From the NCBI GenBank assembly GCA_017506865.1, contig JAFCMP010000257.1:496001-560000 (forward strand): a stretch of 64,000 nucleotides of DNA. Direction: 5' to 3'. Under the pieces are notes generated by a model, which saw only the letters and a list, made by a program, of their open reading frames with translations, had not been told where the DNA came from and did no database searches. How positions within the stretch are numbered: the first letter of the stretch is position 1; each line of letters opens with the position of its first letter. The translations under genes and the position numbers were made by a program. Shown here in pieces: positions 944 to 61,949 of this stretch. This stretch comes from Tribonema minus. Lineage: Eukaryota; Sar; Xanthophyceae; Tribonematales; Tribonemataceae.

Positions 944-3900
944 TCACCAGCGCCGCCGCGCCATCATCCACCACAACATCACTGCGCCGAGCGCCACCGC
1001 GACCACCACCCTTGCCCGCGTGCTCTCACTGCCATCGCTGCCGCTGCTGCTGCCGCCATCGCTTCCGACAACGCCTCCGACAGCGCTCAGCAGCGGCGCG
1101 AGGAGCCACGCGGGCAGCCGCTCCTGCACCTCCAGCGCCGCCAGCGCCAGCGTCGCCGGCGGCGTACCGGCGGCGCGGTAGAGCCGCTTCGCTTCCGTCG
1201 TGTTCTTCGGCACGCCGAGGCCCCACGCGTGCAGCCAGCCAAGGCTGTACAGCGCGCGCGGGTCGGGCCGAGGCGCCGCCGCCGCCGCCGTGTAGAAGTT
1301 GACAGCCGCCGCCAGCGCCGCATCGGCATCGCCGTCTGCGGCCGCATCTGCTGTCGGCGCGGGCGCTGCGCCGCCGCTGGGCGTGTCCGCGCGAGCAGCA
1401 GCGGTTTCGTCGGCCGCGCCGCCGCTCTGGCGCTTTGCGTCTGCGGCAGGGGCGGCAGCAGCGCTGCGCGTGGCCCACGCAAAGTCCGCGAGCGCCAGGT
1501 GGACACTCGTGTCGCCGCTGTCCGCTGCGCGCTGCAGGTAGCGCTGCCCGGCGGCGACGGCGTCGATGCCGGCCGTGCGGAGGGCGCGCGCGAGGCGATC
1601 GATGCCGCTGCTGTTGCTGCCGCCGCCGCCGCCGCCGCTGCTGTCGTCTGTGGTTGGCTGCGTACTGGCGGCCTGTAGCAGCAGCAGCCCTGCATTCGCC
1701 TTGCCCGCAGTGCTGCCTTGCTCCGCCGCCTGCAGTGGGTGCAGCAGGCCCGTGCGTGAAGGGGTGATGGCATGCGATAGCGGAGAGCGCATGACACTTT
1801 GGAGAGCAGGGGTTTCGGCTTGCTGCTGTGTGGCATGAGCCATCAGTCACACACTGCATGCAATGTGCAGTGGTGACGCCGGTGCATGCTGCTGCGTCAA
1901 TGATGGGCAGACACGCTTGTATGTGGTCGGCAGCCATTCTTGTACCGAGTTCTTCAAGTATAAGTGCGCGTGGCAACAACATAGACCATGGCCACACCCG
2001 CCAGTACGATAAAGAACACACGTGCAGGTACAGTGGCCCTTTGCCAGCTCCCATCAGCCCCTCCTCCCTGTTCTGATAAGCAAACTTTAAGTGCACCCGC
2101 CCCCCCCCTCCTCCCCCCCTTTCCCATCAGCCCCTCTTTCCTGCTGAGATACGCAAACATCAAGCTCACCCCCCCCCCCCGTGCCTCACCTGCGCATACA
2201 GCATGAGCGCTGCCCCCGTGGCCCCCTCCGCGTACGCATCGCTCGCCGCCGCGAGCACCGTCCCCGACAGGTACAGCTCCGCCAGGCGCCGCCAGTACCC
2301 CATGATCTTCTCGCAGTCCCAGAGCGCCACCCCATTGAGCGCGCGCTGCCGCTCCAGGTCTATCAGCTCCAGCAGCGCCGCCGGGACGCCGACGTCGGCG
2401 GCGCGCTCAAACAGCGCCACCGCGGCGGTTTCGTCCTTCTGTAACCGCCCCAGTCCGTGGAGCGTCATGTACCCCAGCTGCACCGCCGCGGGCGTGTAGC
2501 CGCCGCTGAGCGCGGTCTCGAAGCAGCGCGCGGCGTGCGCGTAGTCCCAGGGCTTGGCGTAGTGGTCGTCGGCGGCGATCATGCCCGCTTTGGCGGCCTC
2601 CCTCCCCTTCTTTGTGGGCACGGGGGGGTCGTCGCGGACCATCCCGTCCAGGTACAGCTGGCCCAGGAGACTGTGCGAGTTCCAACAGAGATACAACCGT
2701 ATACTGATTCAAATGACATCATTTCATCGAGGTACAGCTGGCCCAGGAGACTGCATGAGCTCACAGAGATACATGCCGTATCCTTGTTCAGATGACATCA
2801 TTTCGCCGAGGTACAGTTGGCCCAGGAGAACGCGCGGGCTCACAAATTCACATATGGTATGATTGTTTCAGACCACATGGCGGTTATCGTTACTATAGTT
2901 ACATGCCCAGATTTGCAAGCGCCGTGACGGCGGATCACTTTGCTGACACACAGCTGACGCAGACGTTTGCATGACTTGAAGAGAATGTAGTCGTTTCAAA
3001 GCATGTAACTGACGATGTGACGGTCCATTTTGTGGAGTGCATGGCACAAGGTGTGCAGTGCAGAAGGCAGCGAACGGAATCCATAGACATCATCTTATGA
3101 GCCAACTGGCCTAAAGCCAGTCATGTATGCGGCATGCAAGTGCTCAATGAATGCTGCGAAAAACACCCTGGAGCACAACCTGAGCGGCGTTTCACTATGT
3201 GCTGTCCAAGGTAGAATGTGAATCATCATAGGGTAATTGTCAACGGCCGCGAAGTATCCGCAACGCTTTCAGATCGCCAGGAAAACGTAGCCATTGCAAA
3301 CACTGTTGCACTGTGCTCTATGACACAGACGTCGCTACGTAGCTGCCCCGTCAACACATCTCTGATGATCTTCAGCCACCGTCACGAGCGCCGAACGCTC
3401 CTTCGAAGACTGGAATTCATGAACAGGCGCCCCCACACCCTCTGCGCAAGTGAATCCATGAAGCAATGTGAATTTATGAAACGAGCGCGCACCTCCACGC
3501 CATGGCATCGCCGCCATTGGGTCCTGAAATACTCAAATTCATGAACAGGCGTTCCAACGCCCTCTCTGCGCATGTGAACTTCATTCATGCAGCAGTGTAA
3601 ATTCATGAGCAAATGCGCACCTCCACGCCATGGCATCGCCGCCCTTGGCCCCGTCATGGAAGTGGTTGACCACCTGCTGCAGGTCGTAGCCCTCCCACAT
3701 TGGCCCATCGCCCCAGTCCATCTGGTGCAGCATGCCCAGGTACGTGTGGCCCTGCGCCTCGCCGCTGTCTGCAGCACGCTTCAGCCACAGCTCCGCCTGC
3801 GCGCGGTCCGGCATGCGGCCGCTCTCCCCCATCATGTACTGGTACCTGCACAGCGTTGAGCGCGCAATGTCATTGTCATCTGAAGCATGTCGATGAAGTG

Positions 3901-6794: not shown

Positions 6795-7039
6795 GCCAAG
6801 ATCTGATGCCAAGATCTGGGTTGCACCAACCGGCACGATCCAGCAAGGGCACTGCTTTGCCTCGGCCTCTTTTCAGAAAAGTGCTGTTGATGGCAGACGC
6901 TTTGCCAATCACACACGGCCACTGTCCGCCCTGCCGGGTTGCAATCAACCTGATTGGTGATCCACTTCAAGTTCTCGAAGGTGAAGTCTCATGTGTTCTG
7001 TCGCTCACGCACGGCAACAGGGAGTAGCCGCACGTCACC
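6795..7039. promoter_or_regulatory. Divergent intergenic region between SEL1L-like gene and small ORF
   Basis: About 245 bp separates the most upstream usable ATG of the minus-strand SEL1L-like gene from the ATG of the plus-strand small ORF. A shared promoter is therefore possible. No TATA-type element stands out. If the SEL1L-like gene has another 5' exon, it lies within or beyond this segment. Confidence 0.3.
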
Positions 7040-7255
7040 ATGGATCGCGACCCAGCAGCGGGGAAGTCTCTGAATGAGCCTGTGCGCCGCAGACGGGGCG
7101 CCGAGGGCGCCTCCGCCGACCAGCAAGCTCAAGAGGAGGTGGGGTTTCTATTCGATGCTCGCAGTGGCGGGGACCTAGTGGTCGTGGGGGGCCTCCTGGT
7201 GCTGATGCTGCTGGCGGCCATGCGGCAGATCATGCTGCCCCCCTGCACGTGCTAG
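7040..7255 (+). CDS. Small putative membrane protein (71 aa)
   Basis: An intact ATG-to-TAG frame with a favourable start context (CACCATGGATC). The first 45 residues are polar and charged (an RRRRGAEG stretch followed by an acidic/glutamine part). They are followed by one strongly hydrophobic span, DLVVVGGLLVLMLLAAM, near the C-terminus and a short tail ending PPCTC. This layout fits a tail-anchored or single-pass small membrane protein. I do not recognise the family. High GC matches neighbouring real exons. It could also be one exon of a larger gene, or a chance frame. Confidence 0.4.
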   Translation: MDRDPAAGKSLNEPVRRRRGAEGASADQQAQEEVGFLFDARSGGDLVVVGGLLVLMLLAAMRQIMLPPCTC

Positions 7256-7340
7256 AGGTACATTGGCCATCATGATGCAGATGTCACGCCTGTGTAACAT
7301 GTGTGAGTTTGTGTAAATACCGCAAGAACATTACTACGTG

Positions 7341-7434
7341 TCAGCGCGCCAGCAACAGCGCCAGAATCAGCACTCCCACGCCCAACGCCCACAGCCGCGT
7401 TATTCTGTGCAGCCGGATCGGCACTCCGACGTAC
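7341..7434 (-). CDS. Possible terminal exon of a tail-anchored membrane protein
   Basis: On the minus strand, an acceptor-like ATATCAAG precedes an open segment that reads YVGVPIRLHR, then TRLWALGVGVLILALLLAR and stops. That is a basic patch followed by a single hydrophobic span of about 18 residues at the extreme C-terminus, the arrangement seen in SNARE-like and other tail-anchored proteins. No upstream exons could be identified between 7435 and 9358, so the gene is incomplete or the call is wrong. It converges on the small plus-strand ORF. Confidence 0.25.
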
Positions 7435-12832: not shown

Positions 12833-15800
12833 ATGACAATGGCCGGCAAGGCACGCACCGCCTTGGCGGGTGCTTTGCTCTGCCTCGTGTCCCTGGCAAG
12901 CGCCAACGTGATAGGCGTCGATCTGGGAACTGACTTCATGAAAGTGGCTCTGGTGGCCCCCCGCCGTCCGCTGGAAATCGTCACCAACACAGCCAGCAAG
13001 CGCAAAACGGCCATGGCTATCAACTTCGACAGGGGGGAGCGAAGCTTCGGTGGAGACGCTCTCGTCATGCTCGCCAGGAAGCCAGCACAGACCTTCACGA
13101 AGCTGACTGCGTTGCTGGGCAGGCACGAAGATCACCCCGACATCAAGGCTCTGGAGAGCACGGGGCTGCCGCCCCTGTCCTGGAACGCCACGAGGGGAGG
13201 GCTGGAGCTGCGGCTGAAGGACAGGGGCCAGGAGTCCACCTACATGCCAGAGGAGCTGACGGCCATGATGCTGTCGCACGCGCACGAGATGACGCACATG
13301 TTCGGCTACAACGTCCCCGACGCCGTCATCACCGTCCCCTCGTACTGGACCGCCCACGAGAGGCTGGCGCTGGCGGACGCCGTGGAGCTCAGCGCGCTCA
13401 ACGCCCTGTCCTTCATCGACGAGAACACTGCAGCCGCGCTGCAGTACGCCATCGACAGGCCCAAGGACAAGCCGCACAACGTCCTCTTCTACAACATGGG
13501 CGCGGGCTCCACTCAGGTCTCGGTCGTTACATATGGCCCCAAGATGGTCAAGGACTCCAACGTGGGCCAGTTCACCTTGCGCGGCAAGGCGTGGGACACG
13601 TCGCTGGGCGGGCACTGGTTCGACCTCGCGCTCACGGACCTGCTCGCCACGCAGTTCAACTTGAAGTGGGGCGGGGGTGACGTGCGCGACCACCCGCGCG
13701 CGATGGCGCGCCTGCGCTCGCAGGCCGCCAAGGTCAAGCAGGTCCTGTCGGCCAACATGGAGATCCCCGTGACCGTGGAGCAGCTGCACGCGGACATCGA
13801 CTTCAACACGCTCGTCACGCGCGCGCAGTTCGAAGTCGCCGCCGCTGACCTGTTCGACAGGGTCACCGCGCCCATCGACGCGGCGCTCGCGGCCGCGAAC
13901 CTGACGCTCGCGGACGTGCACGAGGTGGAGATTGTGGGGGGCGGGGTGAGGGTGCCGCGCGTGCAGGAGCTGCTGAGCGCGCACCTGCCGCTGCCGCTGT
14001 CGGTGCACCTGAACGGCGACGAGGCGTTTGCGCTGGGGGCGGCATTCGCGGGCGCGAACGCGTCGCGCGCGTTCCATGTCCGCCAGGTGAGCGCTGTTGC
14101 GGTGTTCCAGAAGACCACTATTATGGTTAAAGTGCAATGTACAAGTGCAATTTACTGCGTGTATGGCCAACGCGTTGCGCGCGTTCCACGTCCGCCAGGT
14201 GAGCGCTGTTGCGGTAACCAGAAGTCCACTATCATTAGAACGGTGCAGGTTACTGTAGGTATTGCGCCTGCCAACGCGTCGCGCGCATTCCGTCCGTCAG
14301 GTGAGCGCTGTTGTGGTGCTCCAGAAGTCCACTATTATGAGAAGGGTGTAAGTTGTTGGGTGCAAGTTACTGCACGTATGGCGGGCGCATCTTTGCGCGC
14401 GTTGCACATCCGCCAGCTGAGCGCGTTTGCTACACTGTAGCAGCGGGTTTTCAGAAGTCCATCAGGCATCAACATCAATTGATAGTGTTGCTGATGCATG
14501 TGCCACTTTCTGTACATATTGTGCCCGCAAACGGCTCGCATGCATTCCACGTCTGCCCGGTGAGCGCGGTGGCAAGCAGCAGTACTCCAGTAGTTCATTG
14601 TCACATGTTGCAAAGATTGTAGTCTTATGTGTACGTTACTGTACGGTACCCTAACCCTAACCCTAACTTAGCCTGTAGCGGTACATCAGAAGTCCGCATT
14701 AATGGTTTACTAGCTATGTGCGTGTAACTTGAGGCATACGGCGTGTGCTAGGTTCCTGATCTGACGCATGCTCCCTGCATATGTATTGCAGGACCAGCAA
14801 GCACTGCATGATCAATTGTAGAACTTCGGCAAGTGTTGCGGCTGCAGGCATGTGAACGGTTCAGGGCAATTGTGGTTCAGCAGGCTCAGGGTTGCGGTTG
14901 TGGATCACGTTAACTTCAACTCAACTGCACGTTTTTGCGTATGGTACGCCATTGTTAACAAGCAACAGCAAGCGGCCACAGGTTGAGCAAGTCAAAGTTG
15001 TGACAGCCTTAAAATCTAGCTCATGGAGCTTTTGCTACAACTGCACGATGACATTGTGCATAGCTATGTTGTAACAGCAACAAAGCACATGCACTTTCAA
15101 CCAGGTTATTGCTGCCTTATCAACTGTTAGCAGCATCGGCAAGATGCTGCCAGCCTGCAGCAAGCTCAAAGCATACCATATCTGCAAGCGCCTTCGGAGC
15201 CTCATTATACTCCGATTGTGTGGTGCATCATGCAGCCGCCAACGCTCAAGTACACTGTGAACCGCGTACGCACCCAACTGTACTGAAGGTTTATTGCTAG
15301 AGCTGAGCACTGCATACTAGAGGTGACACTCCTCTCCATTTGGTTCCGCCGCTGCTGCGCAAGGTGGGGATGTCAGACATCACGCCATTTGCGGTGGACC
15401 TCCACCTGGCGGACGCGCCGCGCGCAACTGCCGCAACTGCCGGCGGCAATGTGTTCTCCAACATGCTCCACAAGCTCGACGGCAAGGAGAAAGGTAGGCT
15501 GGGTATGCAGGATTGTATGCGCATCGTAGCAGTGATCAAGGCGGTAGCATAGTGGTGTGTATGACAAAGCAACAGCTGTTGGAAGTTGACCAGCAGGACA
15601 CCAGACTTGATATTGAAGTTGAAGGGCGAAATGGTGTGGGTGCCGCATGACACATGCATTCAGAGGCGCATGATTGACTTATTTCTTAACATATGACGTT
15701 CAAGCAGGGACGCCATTCTTGAATGTGCGGTTACAAATGATGGCATGCTGCCAATGCTGACAAGTTTGAAACCCTTGTCGCGCAACGTCAGCAGGAAGCA

Positions 15801-23582: not shown

Positions 23583-23660
23583 GGACGTGTAGATTTTGGT
23601 GGCAACATGGAGATCTACCATCTGGGGTATTTCACACCCTGAGCGAGGATCAGTAGATAT
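23583..23660 (+). repeat. Degenerate partial copy D of repeat family R1
   Basis: The blocks GACGTGTAGATTTTGG, CCATCTGGGGTATTTC and ACACCCTGAGCGAGGAT match the 3' third of R1. It lies about 95 bp from, and inverted relative to, copy C. Confidence 0.5.
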
Positions 23661-23752
23661 TGCATACAGCAGCACTGGCGCGGCATGGCATACCCCTATC
23701 CCTGGCTGTTGCTTGTCCTGACCTTCAATCAAAAAGTAATCGGACCTCGCTC

Positions 23753-23940
23753 GTACTTTTTATTAATTCTCGCTCAGGGCGCGAAAAAGCCGAGATGATT
23801 GGCATCTATAGCTGTACGAAATCTACATGTCGTATGACAGTCTGAAAGTGTCGAAACGACAACCACTCTCAAACGCCGCCGCCGCCAGATGGCATCTCGG
23901 GATCCTCCCCTACGTCCTCCTCCATGTGCCCCCCCCCCCC
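23753..23940 (-). repeat. Dispersed repeat family R1, copy C (inverted)
   Basis: Reverse complement of the R1 unit, beginning GTACTTTTTATTAATTCTCG and ending in a C-run after CCTCCTCCATGTG. It is closest to copy A, including the GGCGGCGGCGGCGTTTGAG block. Confidence 0.75.
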
Positions 23941-25464: not shown

Positions 25465-25493
25465 GCAAACTTGTAGGCTTTGACACAAAACGT
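25465..25493 (+). repeat. Left member of an inverted repeat flanking the retrotransposon
   Basis: The segment GCAAACTTGTAGGCTTTGAC through ACACAAAACGT is inverted, with about three mismatches over 29 bp, at 35926-35954. The retrotransposon plus about 650 bp lie between. This suggests insertion into an older element with terminal inverted repeats, or a local inversion. Confidence 0.65.
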
Positions 25494-25510
25494 TTTTATT
25501 TCTGGCCTGA

Positions 25511-48600: not shown

Positions 48601-51600
48601 CCCCTGGCCCTAACCCTCATTGCGTACAGCTGTAGCAGTGCTCAACAACCCATCAGACTCCCACAGCTCTCGCATCTGCAGTCGTGCGAATGGCATCATG
48701 TTGAGCACTTGGCGCAAAGGGCAGGCACATTCTAATAATAAGATATATCTGGTGGTTTCAGATACTTCGAAGTATGAGATTTCAGTCACTGATTCTCACC
48801 ACAACAGTGAGCGTTGCCACAAGCACACACGCGCGCGCAAGCTCAATGGTTGACTCAAATTCGCCATAGACGTTCCAAGTCAGACCAGAAGAGCGTAAGA
48901 AAACGCACGTCAGCTTTTCTACCAGCTCGCCCGCAAGCCATAATGAGTTCCAAGCGTTCACGTCCCTGACGAATACATACACTGAAGTTCACTATTGAAT
49001 TTATGGATAACCTTTCAAACCGTAGACATGCGCGAACTCGCCGCTGGTACTCAACAAATTTCGGGGGGTTGTGAACGTATTCTGAGGGTTGATGCCCCCT
49101 TCATGAAGAATTTCACTATTGAAGTTATGCATCATCTCACCAGCAGAGCGTAGACGCGTGCCAGTTCGCCCCCCGTGCCGAATGAGTTCTGGGGGTTGAC
49201 GTCCCCCTGGTAGGCGCCCGTGAGGAAGTACTCACGGAGGCCGGGGGTGTGGCTGACGCACTGCACGCCGCTGCTGATGTAGCACGTGTTGCCCAGGTTC
49301 ACGAGGCCCACCAGCTGCGGCAGGGGGGTGGAGGGTTAGGGCAGGTAAGGCAATGCTTGCGACAATAAGCAGCGGTACGAATGACACATTGCACGCCGCT
49401 GCTGATGTAGCACGTGTTGCCCAGGTTCACGAGGCCCACCAGTTGCAGCAGGGGGTAGGGTAGGTAGGGTATGATTGCGTCAGGTAGGCAGGGTATGGTT
49501 GTGCGTCAATGAGCAGAGTTTTTGGTTGAATGCACTGCACGCCGCTGCTGATGTAGCACGCGTTGCCCAGGTTCACGAGGCCCACCAGCTGTAGCAGGGG
49601 GTAGGGTAGGTGAAGTACAATTGCGTCAGGCTAGTAGGCAGGGTGTGGTGTGCATCAGGGTATGGTTGCATCAGGGTAGGCTGGGAATGGTTGAGCGTCA
49701 ATGAGCAGGATCCTGCATGGTTGACACACTGCAGGCTGCTGCCAATTTAGCATGTGTTGCCAAAGGTTCACGAAGCCCACCAGCTGCGGCGCAGGGGGTA
49801 GGGCAGGTAGGGTATGCTAGTGTCAGGATAGGCAGGGTATAGATGTGCATACATGTGCAGAGGCTGAATGCACTGCACGCCGCTGCTGAAGTAGCACGTT
49901 TTGCCGAGGTTCAGGACTGCAGCAGATGGTAGGGCAGGTGGAGCATGGTTGCGTCAGGTTGATAGGCAGGGTACGGTTGTGCGTCAATGAGCGGAGGTTT
50001 TGGGTAAATACACTGCACGCCGCTGCTGATGTAACGCGTGTTGCTCAAGTTTACGACGCCCACCAGCTGGGGCAGGGGCGTCAGGGGCGGGGTGGGTAGG
50101 GTATGGATGGGGAAGGTGCTATTTCCGGCGGCTTCATGGGTACAGTGAGTTGATGAAACCCAGCAGCTGCGGCAGGGTGTTTGCGGTGGTGTCGGAGTTT
50201 TTGCGGTTGAGAGGGCAGGGTAGGTAGGGCATGATTACAACAGTGAGCAGGAGTGGCAGCAAGGGATATGTTGATACAGCAGCGCTCAAATAGTATACAG
50301 GGGTGACCGAGGCCCGCCGGTGTGGAATTTCAACAACGCCACTTTCAACAGTCTCGCAGTGCTGGCTGCTGTGCAGCAGCCAGGACTGTGCTGTTATCTG
50401 CCCTGTAACCAATCTGCAAGCGCAGTGAGTACGTGACGTTGGCGTGACAGACTCAATAAAAGAGACCCTCAACAATTCAACCTCAACACTAGCTGCACTC
50501 CATAGATCGACCGTGACGTGACCGCTGTGACGCAAATTGCCCCGTTTCCAATCTCTACGGGGCGTGGTGAGCTCTGGCGATGTGGGCGTAAACAGCGCTC
50601 AGTAGAAACTTCAACAACCCAACCTCGCATCTACTTTTTGTGACGCTGTAGTGTAGCTCTTGCCCCATTCCCGATCTCCTCAGGCGTGGTGAGCTCTAGT
50701 GACGTACAGTAGGCGCGCCAGCGCTTGACAAAAAAGCTTCAACAGACCAACCTCAACATCTGCCTTAGGTTATCTGCTTCGACAAGGTGACGCTGTAGCA
50801 GTTACCCGTTAATCTCCCCAGGCGAGGTGAGCTCTAGTGACCAGCGCTCAGCAACAAACTCTAACAGATCAACAGAGCCCGCACGCCGACAGCTGTGGCA
50901 AAACAAGAATAAACAGAAATGATGCACCTACCCCATTCCCAATCTCCCCAGGCGTAGTGAGCTCTAGTGAAGTTGGCGTGGCAGCGCTCGACGCCCCTAG
51001 CCTCTCCTCTTCCGCGGCCTCCAGCGTACTCTGCAGCTGGCTGCGCGGCCACGTGCCATCTGGCAGGCTGATCTGTTGCCGCAGTAGGGAACAAGGGTGG
51101 CGCAAGGGTTAGAGTGACACAGGCTGATCTGTTGCAGACGAAACAGGGCGAAGGCATAGGCAAACAAGCTCAGATGTGAATGTGCCATACGGAAGGTTTA
51201 TCTATGACTATGCCATAGGGAAGGCTGACGAAATCTGGCAGGCCGATCTGTTGCCGCAGTAGGGGGCAAGGGTTAGGGCTAGGGTTAGGGTTACGCTTGG
51301 GCGCACTCAAGGCGTCATGGGAAGGCTAAGCTGCAGCCGCAGCACGAGGGGAAAGGCAAGTCTGGCAGGCTGATCTAAGGTGTCATGGGATGGCTTACAT
51401 TCTCAAGGGGGCAAAGGCAAATTTGAGTAACTGAACACTGCGATGGTGCCATCTGAAACGTGTAAGGTGCTACCAGAGCATCAGGCATGCTTTTGCTTGT
51501 GTGCAGCAGCAGCGTTCGCCGCAAGCAGCAGCATCAAGATGATGCTCATTCTGCATGAGCGGCAGCGTGTCAAGTACACAGCTCTATGCTCAAACAGCAA

Positions 51601-54600
51601 CTTCAAAAAGCTGTTTGTGCGTCACCTCAAGCAACTGCAGCAGCAGCAGCAGCGCTCACCTCAGCAGCAGCATCTCATCTGCATCGGAGGATTTGTATGT
51701 TCGCGTTCAAGGAATATAGTCGTATACAAAACTGCGAAATACACTGTGATTTCGGTACATATAGCATTGCATTATCCAAATAATTCAAAATATAACTTCA
51801 ACCTCCATTGCTTTTGTGCGGCAGCAGCGCTCACCTCGAGCAGCAGCATAATCTGCCATGCTGCATGGGCGGAAGCAGCATGTCAGGTAGCCCCTGTGCT
51901 CAAACATGAACTTCAACAGAGTTGTTGGGTGCGTCACCTCAAGTAGCAGCAGCAGCGCTCACCTCGAGCAGGAGCATCTGCCCGTCCTGCACGCGGCTCT
52001 CCTCTAGGGTCCTGTCGGGCGGCAGCAGCTGCTGTCGCCGCCAGTCTGCCTCTTGCGGGTAGTAGTAGTCCCACAATCGCGCACTGTCTGGTTCGACCTG
52101 CCAGCACAAGCGGCAATACATGTACATACATACATACACGCGTGTGATTTTGTGACAATGAATAAATCACGTGCGCATGAACGTATTTCCGTGACCAGCA
52201 CACTTGAACCTGCAAGCCAAAGAAGCCGGCGGGTTTAAGCGACTCCACAAACGGTTTAAAAGGAAGCTGGGCTGTTGCAGAAACGTCTGCTGCTGTGATG
52301 ATGTTAACAATATACAAGTGCAGTGCTAAGTCCGTCTGTCCGCCACCTGTGGGAAGCGGTAGAATCACGACAGTCCACCCAGAAGAACTGCAAGTTGAAG
52401 TTACGACATGAGGCAGCTGGCGCACCGCAGGGCCATGTGCGACAGTTGATTGAGCAAGAGCCTTGCCAATCGTATGAAGGAGAGAGCATTACTGAGTGTG
52501 TAAGTTGAAATTGTAACGGCAAGGCGTCTGACCTTGGTCATGCGCAACAAGGAGATGCCAAGTTAACATTGAAGTTGCAATGGTGAAGACCTACCTTGGC
52601 CGTGCGCAAGCAGATGCTACCCCAGCCGTGGGTTCAAGTTGCAATTGAAGTCAATGGTGAATCGACTCACCTTGGCCTGCGAAACAGCTGCTCGACCAGA
52701 CCCTACCGCAGACACGCCAGTTCAATCAAGGTCATGCTGATGAATCAAAGTTCAGCTGAAGTCATGATGATGTAAACGACTCACTTTGGCCATGCGCAAC
52801 AGGTGCTCTACCAGATCCTACCCACATGTGGGACATCAAGGGTTCAATTGAATTCCCGATGATGAACTGACTCACTTTGGCCATGACTCACCTTGGCCAT
52901 GCGCGACAGGTGCTCGAGCAGGTCCTGACCGCGCGCGACGCGTGATAAAAGCAAGTTCAACTCGAACTTCAATCGGGTCACGATAATGAATCGACTCACC
53001 TTGGCCATGCGCGACAGGTGCTCGACCAGACCCTACCCACATGTGGGACATCAAAGTGTTCAAATGAATTCATGTTCATGAGCTGACTCACTTTGGCCAT
53101 GCGCGACAGGTGCTCGAGCAGGTCCTGACCGCGCGCGACGCGTGAGAACAGCACCACGCGCTCCGCATCGCGCGGCCGCCCGCGCGCGTCACACGTGCCT
53201 ATGCGCAGCCTGTAAGGCCACAGCTCCAGCACGTGATGGCCCTCCATTAGGGCCACGGCGCGCTCAATGGGGGGGCCGCCCTCATACCAGGTCTGCAGCA
53301 GCAATTAAAGGGGGGAGGAAAGGGGAGGGGGGGGGGGGGAGGTGTGGTGGGGGTCGTACCATGTCTGCAGCGGGCAGTTGAAGTTGCAGTTGAAGATGCA
53401 GAGACCGGAAAAGGTGGGGGGAGGGGGGGGGGGGGTATAACAGTGTTTGAAGGGGTGTAGAGGGGTTTGTTTCCATGCACTGACAATGCGTGATATGTGG
53501 TCCTTGACAGGTGCTGCTGTCAGTAGCATTTTGCCTTCACCAGCCAGGGGGGGGTGCAGTTCGGGCCTCGAGATACAAAATCCGCCAGCCTGCTTCACTA
53601 CCCCAAACATTGTACGGCACCGGTAGGTGATACACCATGAGCGTTGTGGTTCCACAGACTACGCATGGTATCAATGTTCACATCCATGTGCTCAGCGTCA
53701 TACTCACAATGACGATTCTTGTGGGCATCTATCGGATGCACCATATATGAAGAAGCACATGAAAAGGGCCAACCCAGTACTGCCCCCTACAAGCTCGACA
53801 ACGCTGTGTGCAGCCAGGTTCAGCACTCATTTAATCACACGTAGTCCCTGGCAGTAGTACCGTGCCACCCTCTACTTCAATTGTGACGCACCTGCAGGGA
53901 CGCCCACGCCGCCGGCGGCAGCAGCTTGAAGTCGCGTCCGATGCGCACAAAGTCGCGCAGCCGCGACCCGTCCACCGACGCCACCGTCATCAGCGCCCAG
54001 TTGCTGATGCTGCCCGGCCGGTGCACCACCCCCGCCGCACCCGCCGCGCCCGAAGCAAACCCGTTGACGCCGCTGCCGCCGCCGCCGCCGCCAATGGCAT
54101 TGCCGCCAGCGCCACCGCCGCCACCGCCGATGGCACTGCCGCCGGCGCCGGCGCCGCCAATGGCCCCAAAACCGTCCCCGCCAGTGATGGCGCTGCCGCC
54201 TCCACTGCCGCCAGCAGCAGCGGCATTTGCATTAGCAGCGGCGGTGGCGGCAGCAGCGCTCAGGTCGTCGCTGGCGCGGCGGAAGCGCGCGTACGCGCAC
54301 CAGCGGTTCCACCAGACCTGGTCGATGAGGTTCCAGGGGGTGCCCACAGCGCCGTAGCGGAAGAGGGGGACCTCGCGCCCGTGCAGCGCGTCGTACTGGC
54401 GCATGTGCTCCGACACGACGTCCCGCTCCTGCGCGCGCGCGCGTGTGTAATCGCGGTTGGAAAGGGAGGGTTGGGGGAGGGGGAGTCAGCAGCGCTCTGG
54501 TGCGCCGCCGCGCTAGAGAGCTGGACAACAGGAGTGGTCACACAGAGTGTTAAACAGTGTAGGGTGTGTTGCTAGCAGCGCATCAGGGGCGTCAATCTGT

Positions 54601-57600
54601 CGCGTATGCTCCGACACGACATCCCGCTCCAGTGCGCGTGCGTGTGTGCGTTGCAGTCAGGGGTGTGCGGTGTGTGGGGAAGCGGTTAGCAGCTCAGGCG
54701 TGCCGGCGCTGCAGCAGTAGCGGAGCGCCAGGTGGCCTTTCTGCCGAACTCTCGGACAGGGGGGCATCTGTCAGCACGAGCAGGTCCTGCAGCAGATCGC
54801 AGGGGGTGTGGATGGGGGGGGCGAGTGCCCTTGCCGTGCGCAACCTGCAGATCAGCAGTGCTCATACCATAAACTCAGTTCACTTGTGCTAACTGAAATA
54901 ACTGAATAAACATAATTTTACACGACAGACATCTGGCACACCAAAAGCAGCTGTTGCAAGGGTCCGCCCAGACGTATAGCGCTCCACAATCAACGTTCGA
55001 CAAACGAAACATCATCGAACTTCAAGTACAAAAAGTGACCAGAAGATCATGGCATACCTGAGCGGCTGTTGCCGGTCTCATGCATCGAGTACAACAAGTA
55101 TTATAGGCGAGGGACCCTTCAGGGCGCGAGCCTTCTTAAGTCATGGCGCGCGCAAGCCTCCGCACTACTGATGCATCTGGGCGTGCTGATTTTTGCGGTG
55201 ACGGGTACGCGTACGTGCTAACGTCTGCTTCAAAGCCGTTACGCGCAACTTCACTTCCTGCCGCTAACCCTAACCCTAGCTTAGGGCTAGGACTACTTAG
55301 GGTTAGGGCCAGAAACCCTTTTTTGCCTGGTGTTGTTTATGTGCTAAGCGTTGCAGGACGGCTTACTGGCAATGCAGATGGAATTCCGCAGCATGCGCAT
55401 AACATGATCTCAATGCAGCAGAAAACATGAGGTGATGCATATGTTTCAGATTCAAGCAAATGCTGAGGTTTGATGGTCTCTGACCTGCTTTAAGCGCAAC
55501 TTACACAAGAGGCTGTCTGTTCCCGAGTCGCTCGCCCCCCATTCCTTTAGGAGGGGGGTGCTTTCTTGTCAAATGATAATTTATCATGGCCTACCTGAGC
55601 AGCTGTTGCGGGTCTCATGCCGCACTCCGCGATCGCGATGAACGCCAGATCGTGCAGCAGCTGCATGCGCCCTGGGTGCGCTGCGCTCCACGCCATGTAC
55701 CCTGCATGAATAGGGTATGTAGGGGTACAGGGTTTGTAGGTATAAGTCAGTCGGCTAGACAGCAATGCTCAGCTCTAGGTGCGTAACGCTCCACATTATG
55801 TAGCCTGCATGGAGGGTATACGGGGTATAGGGTACTATGTATAGTGAGTTGCGGCCGGACAGCAGTGCTCAGCCCTGGGTGAGCAGCGCTCCACGTCATG
55901 TACCCTGCATGGAAGGTATAGAGGTACTTCAAAGTATTGTGTATGGTGAGTTTCGGCCAGATGGCAGTGCTCAGCCCCTGATGCGCAGCGCTCCACACCA
56001 TGTACCCTGTACAGGGGGGCACCGTTTGTCACAGCAGTGCTCTGCCAGACAGAAGTGCTGCGCAGGATTGAAACGCGCACGCCAGAGCCTTGCAGTACCA
56101 TCACATGCAGTACGGCATCTGAGAGCTTATATGCAGACACATCGATACACACCTTGAAGGGTATGGCGCCACACCTCCAGCCAGGAGATACTCACTGTTG
56201 GTACTTGCTATAAATAGTATCAAAGCAGGGTATAGGGCATGGTGAATTGCGGCCAGACAGCAGTGCTCATTCAGCAGTGCTTTGCGTTCACATCAAACCC
56301 ACACCACGTCCGTGCTCTGTACCAGCGTACATAATGTACGAAATGGTTCTGTCCGATTGCGCTTGCAGACACTGCGCGCCTGCAGTGCTGAGCGCTATGC
56401 ACCAAAGCCAGGTAGGCGTGTATGTATGTGTGTATCCTGCGTATTAAACAGCGCCTGCTGACTCCTCATAGGAAAAAATGAACAGTATACACAGTACCTA
56501 CCTATTGTCACCATGCATACACATGTATGCAAATGCACAATTATAAATGTGGCACTGCCTTCACACTTGCTCCAAGAATGTAAATGCTCACCCTACCAGT
56601 AACCCTTGAACAGCTCACAAACTCTATCGTCACAAATGTCAATGCCCACTGTATGATGGTCAGAAGCCGTCTCAGTCCTGAACCCAACCCTAACCCTAAC
56701 CTGATGCCGCATGCGCACACCGACTATTTGGCCCTATTCTGTCACATGATGCGTGGCCTAGAGCTTGAACACTCCATGCAAGCTGCTATCAGATGTACTG
56801 TTCATGATGTGTCCTGTGCTGACGTCATAACCTCAGTAGGCAGCACAACAGCTTGCGTTCTTCCGCTCTTCTCCACTGCAGGTATTGCGAATGTCCAGGG
56901 GGTACATTTCCAATGCCCTTGGAACAGTGTTGCCACAGCAGTTCCAATTGACTATGTACAGTACCGCAGCAACAGGCCTGTGCAGCATCACAACCTGAGC
57001 ACATACTTACTACTTGTGTTCATAAGAAAGGAAGCCCGCAGTACAGATATTATATCTGTGATATAGCACGGACGTGCAGCTGCCAGAGTGTACATGTGAC
57101 TTTTAAGATCATGAAACCGCCAGTCGCTGATGCTCAGTCACCGAAACTCACCTGCAAACGTGAGCCCGTCGCACGGCGCGCCATCAGACCCCCCACCCCC
57201 CTCCGCCTCACCACCAAACCCACCGCCCCCCCCCCCCACAGACCGCCCTTCCTCCGCCCCCTGCCCCCCTTGCACGCACGCCCCCACGTACTTGTCGCTC
57301 AGCAACCGCATCTCCGCCAGCAGCGCCGCCGCCGCCGCCGCCACGTCCCCCGCCTCACAGCCCAGCCGCAGCAGCCCGGGCACCAGCGCCCGATCGTCAT
57401 ACATACTGAGCGCTGCTGCCGCTGCCGCCTGAGCGCTGCTGCTGTTGACGCTGCCGCTGCGCGCGCGGCCGTCCGGGCGCCTGTCGAAGGACTGCCGCCG
57501 CGGCGTGCCCTCCGCTGCTGCGGCGGAGGCGGCGCTGCCGGCGCGTAACAGACGGCCGGTTCCGTGGGGGGCGCTGGCGGCGGCGGCGGCGGAAGGGCGG

Positions 57601-60600
57601 CGGCTGCGCGCGGGGTGGTGGGCCTGCTGGTGGGGCAGGAGGCCCTCCCTGTGCATGTGGTGCCAGGCGAGCGACTCCAGCATGAGCTCGAGCTCGGGGA
57701 TGCTGCAGCAGCGCTCAGAGGAAGGGATTGCGCACGAGGGACAGGTCAGCTGAAGTATAAGAGTGCGGCGATGGGGGTTGGTGGCTGATTCGCGGGTGGC
57801 GCTGACGGAGAGGTAGGGTTAGGCTTAGGTTTAGGACTCGGACGGCGAGCGCTGATGTGAACAGTACAAGCCGTACTTCAACGACGTGTATTCACGCAAA
57901 CGAGCTCGGGGACGCTGCAGCAGCGCTCAGGCGGCAGAGAGAGTGCGCGAGCGACAGGTCAGCAGACGCACAAGTGCAAATATATCGCCAGTGCGGATGC
58001 ATTGAGATGTGTTCAATTCATATTGCTCACCTGAGCATGCCATCGCGGTCGTTGTCAAACAACTTGAAGTTGAAGACTATAGTGCCATCTAATCCTGCCC
58101 ATTACAGTCACGTACTTCTTGATGTACACAGATGGCCAAATCGCGCGCGCCACGGGCAATTCACAGCATTCAAGCTCATTCCATCCACCATGGCCACCAT
58201 CAATAAAGAACGAGTACTGATAGCGCATTTCAATTCAGGTATTGTTCACCTGAGCATGCCGTCGCGGTCGTCGTCGAACAAGTTAAAGACAATGGTGACG
58301 TGCTGGTGGTGGCTGCCAGTGCCACACACTTCTCGACATACAATGATGCACAACTCAATTCACGGCGTTGCTCACCGGAGCACGCCAAGCTGCAGCGATG
58401 CACTTCTTGACATACACGTACGCGCAATTCGATGCGCATTCTTCACCTGAGCATGCCGTCGCGGTCGTCATCAAACAGGTTGAAGACGATGGTGACGTGC
58501 TCGTGGTGGCTGCCGCGCACCGCCGCGCAGCAAAAGTGCACATAGTCGGAGACGGTCCACTGCATCGGCGGGCCGCGCGAGAAGGCGCGGAAGCAGCGCT
58601 CCGCGAGATCGCCGTGCATCACGCTCGCAGCGAGGCTCAGCCACACGCCTGGAGCACGCGCAAAGAAGTACACAAGTTCAAGTTCAAGTTGAAGTTGGAG
58701 CCGGCGCTCTTGCGACGACCCCTGGACGAGGATCTCGGCAATCGCGTTCGCTGACGTGCGGGGGCGCGTGATCAGTCATGGCAGCATGCGTGAGACTCTC
58801 AGTGTGGTATGTTCCAATGCGATGTAGACTAATGCCCTACTTGAAGCCAACAGAGAAGGCGCGCAAGCAGCGCTCCGCGAGGCCGCCGTGCATGACGCTC
58901 GCATCGAGGCTCAGCCACACGCCTAGAAGGAGGGCAAAATTGAAGTTGAAGTTGAAGCAGGCGCGCTGTGATGACCCCCCATGGAGCATGCACTACCAAT
59001 GACCGCAACGAGCCGTGGCTCACTTGACAGCATGCGGTCTATGGTCTAGTGCACTTGCTGCCAAGCCGTGAAACCTATCACTTCAACTGTGTTGGCACTC
59101 TGTTGATGTTGGTAGGCCAATGGTGCTGCCGCCCGATTTGAAGTTGAAAAGCTGAAGTACACCTCGCGGAAATACACTTCATCAAACATCCCCATGCCTG
59201 CACTCATTGTAGACTACACGAATAAGCCCAAGCCTGAACGACTGCAAGCGCCCCACAAAATCAATAATAATCCAAAGCATGCAAGAAGGTCCTGACATGA
59301 GCTTCTTGCATACGCACCAGGTGCCCATACTTCAAGTTGAAGTAGCACTACATGCGTGGCAGCGGACACCAATGTCCCCCTTCTGCCTGCGCTGCATGTG
59401 CTTCCTTGCTGCCAGTGCCTGTTGCGCATACCACGTGGTATTCTGTACGTGCGTCCAGACTTCAGGTTGAAGTAACACTACACGTTCGTGGCAGCGCTCA
59501 CCAATGTCCATCCTCCCCGCCTCCCCCTTCTGCCTAAGCTGCATGTGCTTCCTCTCCAGCAGTGCCTGCTGCGCGGGCAGTATTCTGTACTTGCGCGCCA
59601 GCCGCGCCAGCTCCCGCTCCGGATTGTAGCGCTGCTCCAGCGCCACAACACCTGCAATGAGGACCGAATCATATATATTATGGCATAATGTTATGCAGCA
59701 AATGACAATTATCCAGCAGTGCGGCACCAGCTGCGCCAGCTCTCACTCCGGAGCCACAACACCTGCAATGGGGACCATACGATATGCATATGTTAAGACA
59801 GTAACTAGCAGGTATCCAACAGCGCCGTAGTGAGGCGCCAGTTGCGCCAAATTCTGATTCACGTTGTACTGCTGCTGCAGCAGCACAGTACCTACAATTA
59901 GGACCGGGTTATATACCCAATGCAGAAATTATCAGCAAATAAGAGCAGTAGGGTAACCCTAACCCTCACCCTACATGGCTAACCCTAACCCTACATGGCT
60001 CCACTGCGCTGAGACGATAGTGGCACTAAGGACCAACCCTAACCCTCGCCCTGCCGGCATGGCGTCACACCACTGAGACCAGCAGGTGCATTGGCGCTGC
60101 GCTGCCGACATTGTCTCTGCATCAGCCGACACCCCTCGAAGCTGTGAGCATGGGGGCTTTAGCCTCCAACCATCACCGCCACTACTGCTCATAGAAATGT
60201 GCACGGCTGACGTTTGCTCATTGTCATGTGAACACACTGCTCAAAAGGGACGGCAGTACACCACCACGCTGACCGGCAGCTCCTCTAGATACCCCCAACA
60301 AGCAGCTGCACTTCTGCCAAAGTGAAGACAGCAGCGCTCCTCTAGATACCCCCAACAAGCAGGTTGCACTTCTGCCAAAGTGAAGACAGCAGCGCGGCTC
60401 ACCGGGGTCCGCCTCCTCAATGCTGCGCGCGCACACGATCCTGAACCACTGCGTCAGCGGCCCTAGTGCGGAGCGCTGCTTCACATTCGCGTTCGCCACC
60501 ACCGCGCGGAACTCCTCAAAGTCCAGCCTGTCTCCGCGCTGGCACCCCGAGAACAGGCAGCCCAGCGCAGCGTCTATGGCCGCCGCGTCCTCCGGGGCAT

Positions 60601-61949
60601 ACACGAGATCCAGCAGGCGGCGCAGCTGCGCACGCAGTCGGAGGAAGCAGGGGCAGGTGAATGATGGGCAGTTACGTGATGGGCGGGTGTTGAAGTTGAA
60701 CGCGTGGGGTGGGCATGACTGAGGACTGAGGCTGATGGCAGAGGATTGTAATGTTGAGTTGCATGTATGTGGCAACCTAACGCGGCGTCTATGGCCGCCG
60801 CGTCTTCCGGGGCGTACACGAGGTCCAGCAAGCGTCGCAGGTGCACGCGGTTGGAGGAAAAGGGTGAGGGTGAATGGAAGTGAATCAAAAGACAGTACAG
60901 CTCTAGATACCAAGGTGTGGTTGGCCGTCGAATTGAATGCCTTCCACCAATGACCGTGGTCGCCACCAAGAACCGTGGTCGCCGCTGCTGCGGCAATAGG
61001 CCACGAGAATGACGGGCGGTCGCGTGATAGGCGGGCGGTGCAGTTGAACACGTGGAGTGGTTATGACTAAGGATTGAGGGTGGTGGCGGAGCAATCTTGA
61101 TGTTGAGGTGTATGCGAGGTCTGTGTCATGATTTGAGGATGATCGAATCGAAATCCTGAAGGTCCGCTCGCGAATCGTGCATGAATACACCATCAAATGT
61201 ATCATGTGCGAGCCTGATCGTGCGGCTGCACAGCGTGAGGTGAAGCATTGTCTTGAGTGCAACAATGCAGCAAGCAAGCGGCTAGCGTCAATAGGGCTGT
61301 TGGTAAGGGGGGGCGATGTCATGACACAATCTGACAACTTGAAGTTGAACATATGAACCTATTAGGCATGGTCACGAATGAAACCACAAACTGTCATATA
61401 CAGGCCCTTGCATAAAACTCTATGCATACACCCAGCCACTCACCCTTTCCCTTTCTACGAAACCGCATCTGCGGACGTCGTAGATTTCGAAAAGCAGCCT
61501 CAGCTGAGCATCCAGAGGTCCTTTCAGCATCACCGCCAGGCCGCAGCAGAACTCCTGCTCGCTGATGAAGCCCCTCCCTCCAACGTCGAAAGCATCAAAC
61601 AAGCTGTCCACCAGATTCTTTGGCTGCGCGCACCACGTGTCGACGGAAGCAATAAACAAGGCGACAGAAAGATGAAGATCTGAGGAGCACGACACACGCC
61701 ACGGAAACACCTGTTGCGCCAGCGCGATGGGGTTGGAAAGATCAGATACTATCCGGTCAATCTAACGTGGACGCTGCTCACCATCATCGGGAACCCTGCC
61801 AGGAAGTGCTTCTGAAAGGCCTTTGGGTCCAAGGCATTGCCATCCGAGATGCGCCTGTACGCGGCCTCCAGCTTCGCCCACATGGCTGGACCCAGCATGG
61901 CCTGCGCCTCCTTCACGGAAATGATCGGCTTTGACCCGTAGAGCCCCAT
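36635..61949 (-). CDS. USP32: USP32-type ubiquitin-specific protease with EF-hands and dual lipidation signals
   Basis: 24 exons, 1917 aa, all phases chaining. Minus-strand exons: 61949-61782, 61623-61459, 60625-60403, 59651-59502, 58648-58447, 57702-57152, 55701-55595, 54428-53892, 53292-53092, 52097-51963, 51072-50932, 49314-49141, 47909-47736, 46731-46543, 45869-45705, 44578-43988, 43490-43317, 42596-42495, 41975-41789, 41287-41149, 40355-40194, 39327-39127, 37961-37253, 36841-36635. Start MGLYGSK fits N-myristoylation. EF-hand loops: residues 69-80 (degenerate) and 295-306 (DDDRDGMLSIPE, canonical). DUSP-like and ubiquitin-like regions span about 487-815. USP core: Cys box VGLVNLGNTCYISSGVQC (Cys 871), zinc pairs CKTC and CSRC, LWRLPPVLVIQLKRFQ, His 1829 in SAGHYVASVK, Asp 1847. 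The C-terminus CALM is a CaaX farnesylation box. Human USP32 has the same domain order. Intron 13 is GC-AG. Confidence 0.93.
38085..38180. repeat. 48-bp tandem duplication in USP32 intron 22
   Basis: GCATGCAAACGGGAACAATT followed by GCGCGGAGTCCTCTGTCTT occurs twice with essentially no mismatch in the shared part. Confidence 0.92.
38575..39040 (-). repeat. Echo array at the donor of USP32 exon 22
   Basis: The real edge (plus CCTGTATGCCGTATACTGGA at 39126) recurs at about 38969, 38718 and 38580 with ATCGCTTGAGCTGGAT following. Each copy carries the AG/GT donor and the RFQYTAYR coding edge in degenerate form. Confidence 0.88.
38845..38968 (-). repeat. Dispersed repeat family R2, copy 1
   Basis: On the minus strand: GAAAACGAGTCAAAAGATCG, TAGAGCTCTAGGTGACAAGG, GATGGTTAGCCGCAAGTGCC, TTCCACCAATGACCGTGG. 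The first three blocks are nearly identical to 62908-62990; a more diverged copy is at 60872-60995. The frame reading ESKDRRALGDKGWLA is open in all three. Confidence 0.85.
39860..40215 (-). repeat. Echo array at the donor of USP32 exon 21
   Basis: The edge (plus CACCTGGGATGGTTTACGCA, CGCCATGGCCTGAGC at 40191) recurs at about 40076, 39962 and 39863, with GCATCATAGCGTTCCCGCA also repeated in the nearest copy. The spacing is about 100-115 bp. Confidence 0.92.
40386..40411 (+). repeat. 26-base G-run (C polypyrimidine tract of a USP32 acceptor)
   Basis: An uninterrupted G homopolymer lying 31-56 bases upstream (in gene sense) of the exon 21 acceptor at 40355. In the transcript it is a long poly-C tract. 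The exact length is prone to sequencing error. Confidence 0.85.
41097..41149 (-). repeat. Telomere-like motif cluster at the donor of USP32 exon 20
   Basis: Degenerate CCCTAA units (plus AACCCTAACGCTAACCGTAA and CCTAACCCTAATTCTAACC) start directly at the splice donor. In gene sense the intron begins GTTAGAATTAGGGTTAGG. Confidence 0.8.
42604..42629 (-). repeat. Telomere-like motif at the acceptor of USP32 exon 18
   Basis: Plus strand GGGTTAGGGTTAGAGTTAGG. In gene sense it is (CCCTAA)n and forms the pyrimidine-rich tract just upstream of the CAG acceptor at 42596. Confidence 0.85.
43608..43634 (+). repeat. 27-base G-run in USP32 intron 16
   Basis: An uninterrupted G homopolymer, poly-C in gene sense, about 118-144 bases upstream of the exon 17 acceptor. 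Confidence 0.85.
44880..45230. repeat. Two diverged tandem copies (about 180 bp) in USP32 intron 15
   Basis: Blocks TCATGAAT..TG, ACACCAAAAACCCAA, GCCTCCCATCTTTCA/CCCCCATCTTCATG, CCACAGCTGCATTCAGTTAT and GTAGT recur in the same order about 180 bp apart. They look like an old tandem duplication. Confidence 0.75.
46745..47060. repeat. TCATGATC-rich tandem repeats and acceptor echo of USP32 exon 14
   Basis: AATCATGATCATG-type palindromic words recur at about 46755, 46801, 46935 and 46955, with GACATCAGAGG repeated twice. Within it, 46870-46935 is an echo of the exon 14 acceptor edge (GCCCGTCGCTGTCTGTCTGC, GGGGCTGCAGTGC). Confidence 0.82.
47370..47760 (-). repeat. Echo array at the GC donor of USP32 exon 13
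   Basis: The edge (plus GTGACTTGCCTTGCTGGTGA, TGTGGTTCAGGTCCTCGTGC at 47728) recurs at about 47599 and 47492, with weaker copies near 47371, 47284 and 47202. The close copies retain the non-canonical GC donor (AAG/GCAAGT in gene sense). Confidence 0.92.
47880..48480 (-). repeat. Echo array at the acceptor of USP32 exon 13 (five copies)
   Basis: The edge (plus GGCTCCCAGGCCCCAAAGTT, CGCGCATCTGCGCAT at 47883) recurs at about 48004, 48121, 48238, 48343 and, degenerately, 48450. Each copy has a preceding GTTAGCGGCGCG-type coding block and a following ATACAT-rich intron block. The period is about 117 bp. Confidence 0.94.
48850..49140 (-). repeat. Echo copies at the donor of USP32 exon 12
   Basis: CGTAGACATGCGCGAACTCG with GGGGGTTG (about 49020-49095) and a weaker copy with CATAATGAGTTCCAAGCGTT (about 48860-48970) repeat the exon 12 donor edge GTAGACGCGTGCCAGTTCGC, GAGTTCTGGGGGTTGACGTC. 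Confidence 0.75.
49256..50190 (-). repeat. Echo array of the catalytic Cys-box acceptor of USP32 (six copies)
   Basis: The edge (plus CACTGCACGCCGCTGCTGAT, GTAGCACGTGTTGCCCAGGT, TCACGAGGCCCACCAGCTG) is real at 49256-49314. It recurs at about 49386-49447, 49535-49597, 49725-49787, 49870-49922, 50010-50075 and a last degenerate one at about 50140-50185. The spacing is about 130-190 bp. The first two copies still encode the GLVNLGNTCYISSGVQC motif and keep a cAG acceptor. Confidence 0.95.
50540..50960 (-). repeat. Echo array at the donor of USP32 exon 11
   Basis: The edge (plus CCCCATTCCCAATCTCCCCA, GGCGTAGTGAGCTCTAGTGA at 50931) recurs at about 50804, 50665 and 50538, about 130 bp apart. Confidence 0.92.
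51060..51385 (-). repeat. Echo copies at the acceptor of USP32 exon 11
   Basis: The edge TGGCAGGCTGATCTGTTGCC (real at 51061) recurs at 51118, 51236 and 51362 with decreasing fidelity. A TTAGGG cluster lies inside at 51270-51293. Confidence 0.9.
51510..52000 (-). repeat. Echo array at the donor of USP32 exon 10
   Basis: The edge (plus CAGCGCTCACCTCGAGCAG at 51953) recurs at about 51829 and 51654, with a weaker copy near 51505. Copies share GCAGCATAATCTGCCATGCT / CAGCATCTCATCTGCATC blocks matching the coding edge EVLLLMQG in reverse. Confidence 0.85.
52500..53130 (-). repeat. Echo array at the donor of USP32 exon 9 (about six to eight copies)
   Basis: The edge (plus CTCACTTTGGCCATGCGCGA, CAGGTGCTCGAGCAGGTCCT at 53088) recurs near 52997, 52889, 52785, 52675, 52592 and 52530, some followed by CCCACATGTGGGACATCAA. 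Two copies retain GACCGCGCGCGACGCGTG exactly. Confidence 0.93.
55261..55311 (+). repeat. Palindromic telomere-type motif cluster
   Basis: CTAACCCTAACCCTAG followed at once by CTTAGGGCTAGG and TTAGGGTTAGGG. The C-rich strand repeats run into G-rich ones, forming an inverted junction. It lies in USP32 intron 7. Confidence 0.85.
55575..56010 (-). repeat. Echo array at the acceptor of USP32 exon 7
   Basis: The edge (plus CGCTCCACGCCATGTACCCT, GCATGAATAGGG at 55684) recurs at about 55785, 55882 and 55988, about 100 bp apart. Each copy is preceded by CAGTGCTCAGC and followed by a GGTATA..GGGTA block. A donor-side copy lies at about 55048-55090. Confidence 0.9.
58025..58500 (-). repeat. Echo array at the donor of USP32 exon 5 (EF-hand)
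   Basis: The edge (plus TTCACCTGAGCATGCCGTCG, CGGTCGTCATCAAACAGGTT at 58441) recurs at about 58245 and 58027, and more weakly at 58370. The repeated coding part is the calcium-binding loop DDDRDGML. Confidence 0.92.
58858..58938 (-). repeat. Echo copy at the acceptor of USP32 exon 5
   Basis: GCGCAAGCAGCGCTCCGCGA, GGCCGCCGTGCATGACGCTC and GAGGCTCAGCCACACGCCT repeat the exon 5 start edge (real at 58584-58650), with a few substitutions. Confidence 0.9.
59330..59910 (-). repeat. Echo copies on both edges of USP32 exon 4
   Basis: Donor edge copy at 59330-59460 (GCAGCGGACACCAATGTCC, CTGCATGTGCTTCCTTGCTG). Acceptor edge copies at about 59722-59790 and 59830-59915 (CAGCTGCGCCAGCTCTCACT, CACAACACCTGCAATGGGGA). 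The real exon is 59502-59651. Confidence 0.9.
59953..60053 (+). repeat. CCCTAA-rich cluster in USP32 intron 3
   Basis: TAACCCTAACCCTCACCCTA, then ACATGGCTAACCCTAACCCT, ACATGGCT, and later CCAACCCTAACCCTCGCCCT. The ACATGGCT-linked unit is itself tandemly repeated. Confidence 0.88.
60268..60396. repeat. About 63-bp tandem duplication in USP32 intron 3
   Basis: CTCCTCTAGATACCCCCAAC, AAGCAG, TGCACTTCTGCCAAAGTGAA and GACAGCAGCGC occur twice in direct succession, nearly identical. Confidence 0.93.
60779..60855 (-). repeat. Echo copy at the acceptor of USP32 exon 3
   Basis: GCGGCGTCTATGGCCGCCGC, GTCTTCCGGGGCGTACACGA and GGTCCAGCAAGCG repeat the exon 3 start (real at 60565-60625) about 210 bp further into the intron. 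Confidence 0.9.
60872..60995 (+). repeat. Dispersed repeat family R2, copy 2 (diverged)
   Basis: GAATCAAAAGACAGTACAGC, TCTAGATACCAAGGTGTGGT, GCCTTCCACCAATGACCGTG and GTCGCCGCTGCTGCGGCAAT align in order with R2 copy 1. Confidence 0.75.

Follow-up and report, generated by a model that had tools for sequence, protein, structure and literature searches.

Why should the introns of unrelated genes be filled with copies of the ends of their own exons? The question is raised by a 64,000-nucleotide stretch of the Tribonema minus genome (bases 496001-560000 of contig C257, in an assembly of 158 Mb and 554 contigs), referred to here as the window, in which three genes, similar to SEL1L, HYOU1 and USP32, carry such copies. 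Gene models were built from manual reading, a small gene finder and Pfam. The HYOU1-like coding sequence (8 exons, 3015 bp) makes a single open frame with an RDEL terminus, and the USP32-like one (22 exons located, 4946 bp) contains no stops and encodes UCH (Pfam 2.3e-30), DUSP and EF-hand domains; in both hand-built models the outermost splice site is used at every junction.

Two samples extend the window. One is a set of 58 introns (52.6 kb) from nine genes, namely HYOU1, USP32, ABC-F, SNF2, V-ATPase C, EF-Tu, PDZ-PA, HECT and a fucosyltransferase-like gene, which were picked as recognisable and mostly as array carriers, with the SEL1L-like gene left out; the fucosyltransferase-like gene, identified by inspection, was added despite its few arrays and, having no clean frame, was dropped from the codon-position count. 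The other comprises 28 arbitrary stretches of 10 kb, whose placement tests are independent of gene choice, two of them (L002 and L003) lying near the window on the same contig. The gene finder was trained on HYOU1 and USP32 only and miscalled some copies as small exons, which blurs the placement tests in the arbitrary stretches.

Self-comparison of the window gave 68 local direct-repeat HSPs, 67 of which we assign to the three genes and one (at 32445) to a retrotransposon, while the intervals 4226-14054 and 20750-32445 contain none. When the 60-mers at the exon edges of HYOU1 and USP32 were compared with their own adjacent introns, a score of at least 36 was reached by 12/28 donors and 11/28 acceptors (23/56 junctions) and by 0/127 controls from the same genes (56 reverse complements, 23 exon middles, 48 far edges; maximum 33). 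In 30 introns of genes from other stretches 16/60 junctions reached this score, and over ten gene segments together a single control of 227 did so (score 45, PDZ-PA gene), the probe concerned having probably come from mid-exon and fallen within a copy that takes in 85 bp of that exon. At score 36 no edge copy appears at the 8 junctions of the fucosyltransferase-like gene or the 4 of the HECT 3' part, and 50-bp tiles beginning at least 125 bp inside an exon of the two window genes have no intron similarity at score 30.

Family calling, where an edge family is one that overlaps an exon by 10 bp or more, found 25 tandem families at exon edges of HYOU1 and USP32 (Table 1). About four further arrays, seen by inspection in the SEL1L-like gene, stand outside the counted set, and with them the count given by the sequence-only reading, copies at more than twenty-five junctions, is borne out. 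Edge families recur at about 40% of 116 junctions (46 families, in genes partly picked for arrays), and edge arrays are present in unrelated genes on several contigs. It had also been said that copies stand on the intron side only; indeed, no family overlaps both exons of an intron in the 58 introns, and a search of 14.27 kb of spliced coding sequence for tandem duplications at offsets up to 400 found none. Within the USP32-like gene the families are unevenly spread, with 16 for the 26 junctions of introns 1-13 and 0/14 for introns 14-20 (p = 1e-4, post hoc), although the donor of intron 20 just reaches score 36. In the 58-intron set a GC donor, probably the one at 47736 on the minus strand, has three copies that span the junction, and these keep GC.

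Table 1. Genes, exon-edge arrays and other located features (window positions unless a stretch is named; arrays from self-comparison and family calling unless stated)
Feature	Position	Strand	Exon edge	Remarks
SEL1L-like gene	2049..5860	-		exon edges from ab initio model; Pfam Sel1
SEL1L-like arrays	2049-2190, 2647-2878, 3406-3648, 3794-4226	-	near 2170, 2670, 3621, 3845	by inspection
HYOU1-like gene	12833..22550	+		open frame, RDEL end; Pfam HSP70 1.7e-84
HYOU1-like exons	12833-14086, 15364-15493, 16050-16227, 17336-18089, 19223-19341, 20183-20318, 21011-21088, 22185-22550	+		
HYOU1-like donor array	14054..14430	+	end 14086	unit ~112 bp; extra decayed copy near 14525
HYOU1-like donor array	16139..16604	+	end 16227	unit ~92-122 bp
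HYOU1-like donor array	18033..18686	+	end 18089	5 copies, unit ~107 bp
HYOU1-like acceptor array	18723..19272	+	start 19223	unit ~192 bp
HYOU1-like donor array	19295..19480	+	end 19341	unit 121 bp
HYOU1-like acceptor array	19704..20208	+	start 20183	unit ~104-125 bp
HYOU1-like donor array	20299..20750	+	end 20318	unit ~189 bp
Long imperfect inverted repeat	about 21410-21790			HYOU1 intron 7; MITE-like by eye
Ty3/gypsy-type retrotransposon frames	26444-34493	+		
USP32-like gene	39127..61949	-		extends further below 39127; 22 exons located, 0 stops
USP32-like acceptor array	60556..60876	-	start 60625	
USP32-like donor array	59325..59595	-	end 59502	
USP32-like acceptor array	58579..58978	-	start 58648	
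USP32-like donor array	58012..58514	-	end 58447	
USP32-like acceptor array	57689..57974	-	start 57702	
USP32-like acceptor array	55669..56009	-	start 55701	
USP32-like donor copy	55046..55620	-	end 55595	offset 537
USP32-like acceptor array	54388..54648	-	start 54428	
USP32-like donor array	52636..53153	-	end 53092	
USP32-like donor array	51493..51979	-	end 51963	
USP32-like acceptor array	51058..51294	-	start 51072	
USP32-like donor array	50663..50992	-	end 50932	
USP32-like acceptor array	49250..50105	-	start 49314	
USP32-like acceptor array	47858..48430	-	start 47909	
USP32-like donor array	47485..47787	-	end 47736	GC donor
USP32-like acceptor array	46684..47018	-	start 46731	
USP32-like donor array	39858..40249	-	end 40194	unit 115 bp
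USP32-like acceptor array	39290..39514	-	start 39327	
USP32-like donor array	38576..39176	-	end 39127	outside counted set; self-comparison
ABC-F stop-codon tandem copy	L009, about 4221-4447	-		coding-end copy without splice site

Units mostly measure 100-210 bp, of which 12-103 bp come from the exon end; the splice site and a piece of neighbouring intron make up the rest. In the 46 edge families the shortest unit has a median of 138 bp (10-90%, 101-207), its exon part a median of 50.5 bp with more than 100 bp in 1/46, and its exon fraction a mean of 0.36 (donors 0.43, acceptors 0.27); this low fraction, with only one exon part above 100 bp, suggests that exon breakpoints were not simply uniform. 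A clear common breakpoint motif was not found in these families, the hexamers AGCGCT, TTGAAG and CTTCAA being two- to three-fold over background at about 4-5 of 46 each. Copies are spaced by a median of 135 bp (5-95%, 87-208), in agreement with the periods of about 85-190 bp noticed earlier. In total 120 copies occur at 51/116 junctions, two or more at 30 of these 51 and, with the threshold applied, no more than five at any junction, and donor and acceptor arrays occur together in 12/58 introns, with 9.0 expected if they were independent. The arrays do lengthen introns, as had been supposed: the median is 1056 bp with arrays (n=34) versus 657 bp without them (n=24; p = 5e-5), and the difference disappears once the estimated array DNA is subtracted (601 versus 657 bp, p = 0.38). 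This DNA adds an estimated 12.8 of the 52.6 kb of intron, about a quarter.

The placement of tandem families in the 58 introns is far from random. Of 55 families 26 lie at donor edges, 20 at acceptor edges and 9 at neither, and the 46 edge families compare with 9.6 expected under uniform placement, where the maximum in 20,000 simulations was 21, or 30 with edge families double-weighted; only about 4/55 families have units that adjoin a junction and take in less than 10 bp of exon. As exons are conserved, copies at edges stay detectable longer, and therefore in a second test all exon bases were hidden and intron lengths were reduced by the recognisable arrays. Even so 26/44 families lay within 15 bp of an edge versus 4.9 expected (maximum 14 in 50,000 simulations), and about eleven of the 18 "deep" families coincide with edge families of the unmasked test. 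In 24 stretches chosen regardless of content, with arrays over 1500 bp excluded, 36/54 arrays end across a predicted exon edge versus 10.6 +- 2.9 at random, and four further stretches, analysed once by the same criteria, gave 9/12 versus 2.1 +- 1.3; combined, the 28 stretches give 45/66 with about 13 expected. Many of the other stretches look transposon-like or gene-poor when their predicted proteins are inspected, and have few or no edge arrays. Statistically, tandem families favour exon edges far beyond what uniform placement or better detectability would give, and over 344 kb of the genome we did not find equal duplication away from exon edges, the outcome named beforehand as contrary to the sequence-only reading.

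The youngest class tells against edge preference. When units are required to be at least 95% identical over at least 40 intron columns, ABC-F intron 1 supplies the single family that spans a junction, whereas three families, one in USP32 intron 3 (8 bp away from the donor) and those of EF-Tu introns 1 and 2, span none; the SEL1L-like array at 3794-4226, which has a 143-bp unit at 98% identity, makes a second spanning case if it is added. A looser count of "young families", 11/15 at 90% or more, was set aside, being dominated by short exon HSPs.

Copies differ from their parents mostly by 10-25%. Since intron identity has a median of 0.81 and near-identical copies are confined to ABC-F intron 1 and the 143-bp SEL1L-like array, most of the duplications are old, and the process may have been episodic. 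Parent and copy match at 0.897 of codon positions 1+2 (1949/2172), at 0.783 of position 3 (850/1086) and at 0.797 of the intron body (1292/1622). This is what is expected of copies that decay as neutral DNA beside a constrained parent, positions 1+2 being free in one branch and position 3 and the intron in both. The splice dinucleotides match at 0.929 (169/182), which is not a significant excess over codon positions 1+2 (p = 0.20), and the splice consensus positions match at 0.853 versus 0.849 for the exon body at donors and 0.850 versus 0.872 at acceptors, so that the earlier notion of copies as functional decoy splice sites finds no support here. Nor does similarity fall off with distance in the way that had been described, with the nearest copy usually the most similar: it is the best in only 12/30 arrays (10.2 expected, p = 0.29), and the mean rank correlation of similarity with distance in 21 arrays comes to -0.13 (p = 0.53) when identity is used and to -0.32 (p = 0.027) when score is used, the farthest copy being the worst in 17/30 by score (p = 0.006) and in 12/30 by identity (p = 0.29). 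No gradient thus supports a directional process with the youngest copy beside the exon. Once a unit has been duplicated across an exon edge and the outermost site continues to serve, the additional copy necessarily sits in the intron, and placement on the intron side follows from frame and outermost site with no need of direction.

One case lies at a coding end. Downstream of the predicted stop of the ABC-F gene the last ~85 coding bp including the stop, with ~25 bp that follow, are repeated as a unit of 112 bp at ~88%, which suggests that a splice site need not be the target. The HYOU1 start, the HYOU1 stop and the USP32 start have no such copy, leaving one case in four gene ends.

We propose, with a probability of roughly 0.6, that the arrays arose by tandem duplication straddling exon edges, with a strong bias for units that include exon sequence. 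The duplicated units, mostly of 100-210 bp, straddle the edge between coding and non-coding DNA, with one boundary 12-103 bp deep in the exon and the opposite one in intron DNA, and the reading frame keeps to the outermost splice site. Duplications would start, or be retained, preferentially where the unit includes exonic DNA, and those wholly within exons would presumably be removed by selection. This anatomy could result if staggered breaks were filled in and joined and the units then underwent unequal exchange, a route that does not on its own account for the exon preference. For that preference three options are seen: an exonic start with survivors that cross the edge, an involvement of the splice junction, or introns that were once much shorter. 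The ABC-F stop-codon copy favours an exonic start, while its simple version is at odds with the small share of exon in the units and with the youngest units. Only tentatively would we suggest that duplication in this lineage is, or once was, directed to exonic DNA or its edges, by which introns, and possibly 3' ends, grow outward through repeated copying of exon edges.

The bias could have a purely historical cause, if random tandem duplications acted when introns were short (an estimated 190 bp or so), crossed edges for that reason, and the introns were lengthened later. Old families do lie at edges, whereas three of the most recently formed units do not span one; short introns do exist (71 bp in USP32 intron 1), and the arrays themselves lengthen introns. 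We consider this history rather unlikely, since introns without their recognisable arrays keep a median of 601 bp, like array-free ones, since the excess in the masked test was obtained on lengths already shortened, and since identifiable later insertions are few, although older arrays beyond recognition could have lengthened introns unseen. A process directed at splice junctions at the RNA or chromatin level (polymerase pausing, R-loops, copying of pre-mRNA fragments) would agree with units that contain the junction, with the rarity of units beside it and with an exon part capped near 100 bp; it appears improbable to us, as the ABC-F copy needs no splice site and breakpoints share no clear motif.

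Selection might instead keep copies for the use of their extra splice sites, as decoys, in recruitment of splicing particles or in regulated intron retention. The retained units do mostly carry a splice site (46/55), and splice dinucleotides have been preserved a little better than codon positions 1+2; as this difference is not significant, consensus positions are matched to much the same degree as exon body, donors and acceptors are equally affected and the stop-codon case has no splice site at all, we give such selection a very small chance. Satellite-like arrays do exist in the genome (L006 1-3744, period about 236 bp; L011 3876-9949, about 183 bp) and were excluded from array counts, but a reading of the exon-edge arrays as assembly errors or ordinary satellites is practically negligible, because their copies mostly differ by 10-25% from the parent and stand in frame-consistent, unrelated genes on several contigs.

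The opinion that no named mechanism has this signature was too strong, since tandem genomic duplication across an intron-exon boundary, as outlined in PMC4974935, is the nearest known kind. In the potato RdRp gene of that account a single such duplication formed a new intron (PMC4974935). Edge-straddling duplication as proposed here resembles it in that the duplication spans the boundary and the parent splice signals are inherited; it differs in that the outermost site is still in frame, an old intron is lengthened and up to five copies stand at an edge. The duplications in the HYOU1- and USP32-like genes are head-to-tail and lie within genes, as tandem genomic duplication demands, and no new intron is needed, because the frames are intact with the original outermost sites only. 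A model of intron gain by tandem duplication of AGGT-bearing exon segments, as summarised in PMC3443670, likewise relies on local tandem duplication in genes, tolerated since splicing removes the extra DNA; there an exon segment is duplicated and makes a new intron, whereas our units hold intron DNA. Introners (PMC3443670, same summary) share with our arrays a genome-wide change of intron content. They are copies of a family at many loci, whereas in our sample intron parts from different records are mostly unrelated: for 52/58 introns, comparison with the other sampled records (25 in all, the window and 24 stretches; same-record matches uncounted) gave nothing at E 1e-6. Only the remaining 6 resemble another record, which agrees with the distinction from introners that had been drawn from sequence alone.

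Small tandem duplications from break repair are a plausible biochemical origin of short units (PMC8355091), and an exon-edge preference is not mentioned in the opening of that abstract. Minisatellites and tandem exon duplication also have head-to-tail units; the location of minisatellites is independent of exon edges, on which placement here depends, and tandem exon duplication takes a whole exon with both splice sites, whereas nearly all of our 46 families took 12-103 bp of exon and one splice site, with the exception of a 57-bp V-ATPase C exon copied over its full length. Among the matches listed (titles and abstract openings, mostly from outside subscription journals) none describes exon-edge arrays filling introns. 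We would file the arrays as a variant of tandem genomic duplication in genes.

Lengthening of introns is usually put down to transposons. If exon-directed duplication is true, it would give introns a way to lengthen with the neighbouring exon, and not transposons, as raw material. With one copy constrained by selection, the exon parts carry a clock of their own, and the system opens two questions to test: whether exons are the target of tandem duplication, and how the spliceosome keeps to the outermost of several near-identical sites.

Apart from the arrays, the window and genome offer some minor observations. In the retrotransposon of Table 1 the frame 29801-32062 encodes reverse transcriptase and RNase H and then a C-5 cytosine DNA methylase (PF00145, 2.9e-15), and the next frame an integrase (Pfam); methylase-bearing retrotransposons are reported, in the outline of PMC5890265, from dinoflagellates and charophytes. 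Short CCCTAA/TTAGGG-like runs are seen by eye in introns at 14649, 41154, 55266 and 59990 (59959-60000), among others. The octamers AACTTCAA/TTGAAGTT and GAGCGCTG are about 18-50x over-represented in introns versus a dinucleotide model, and their density is similar in the transposon region.
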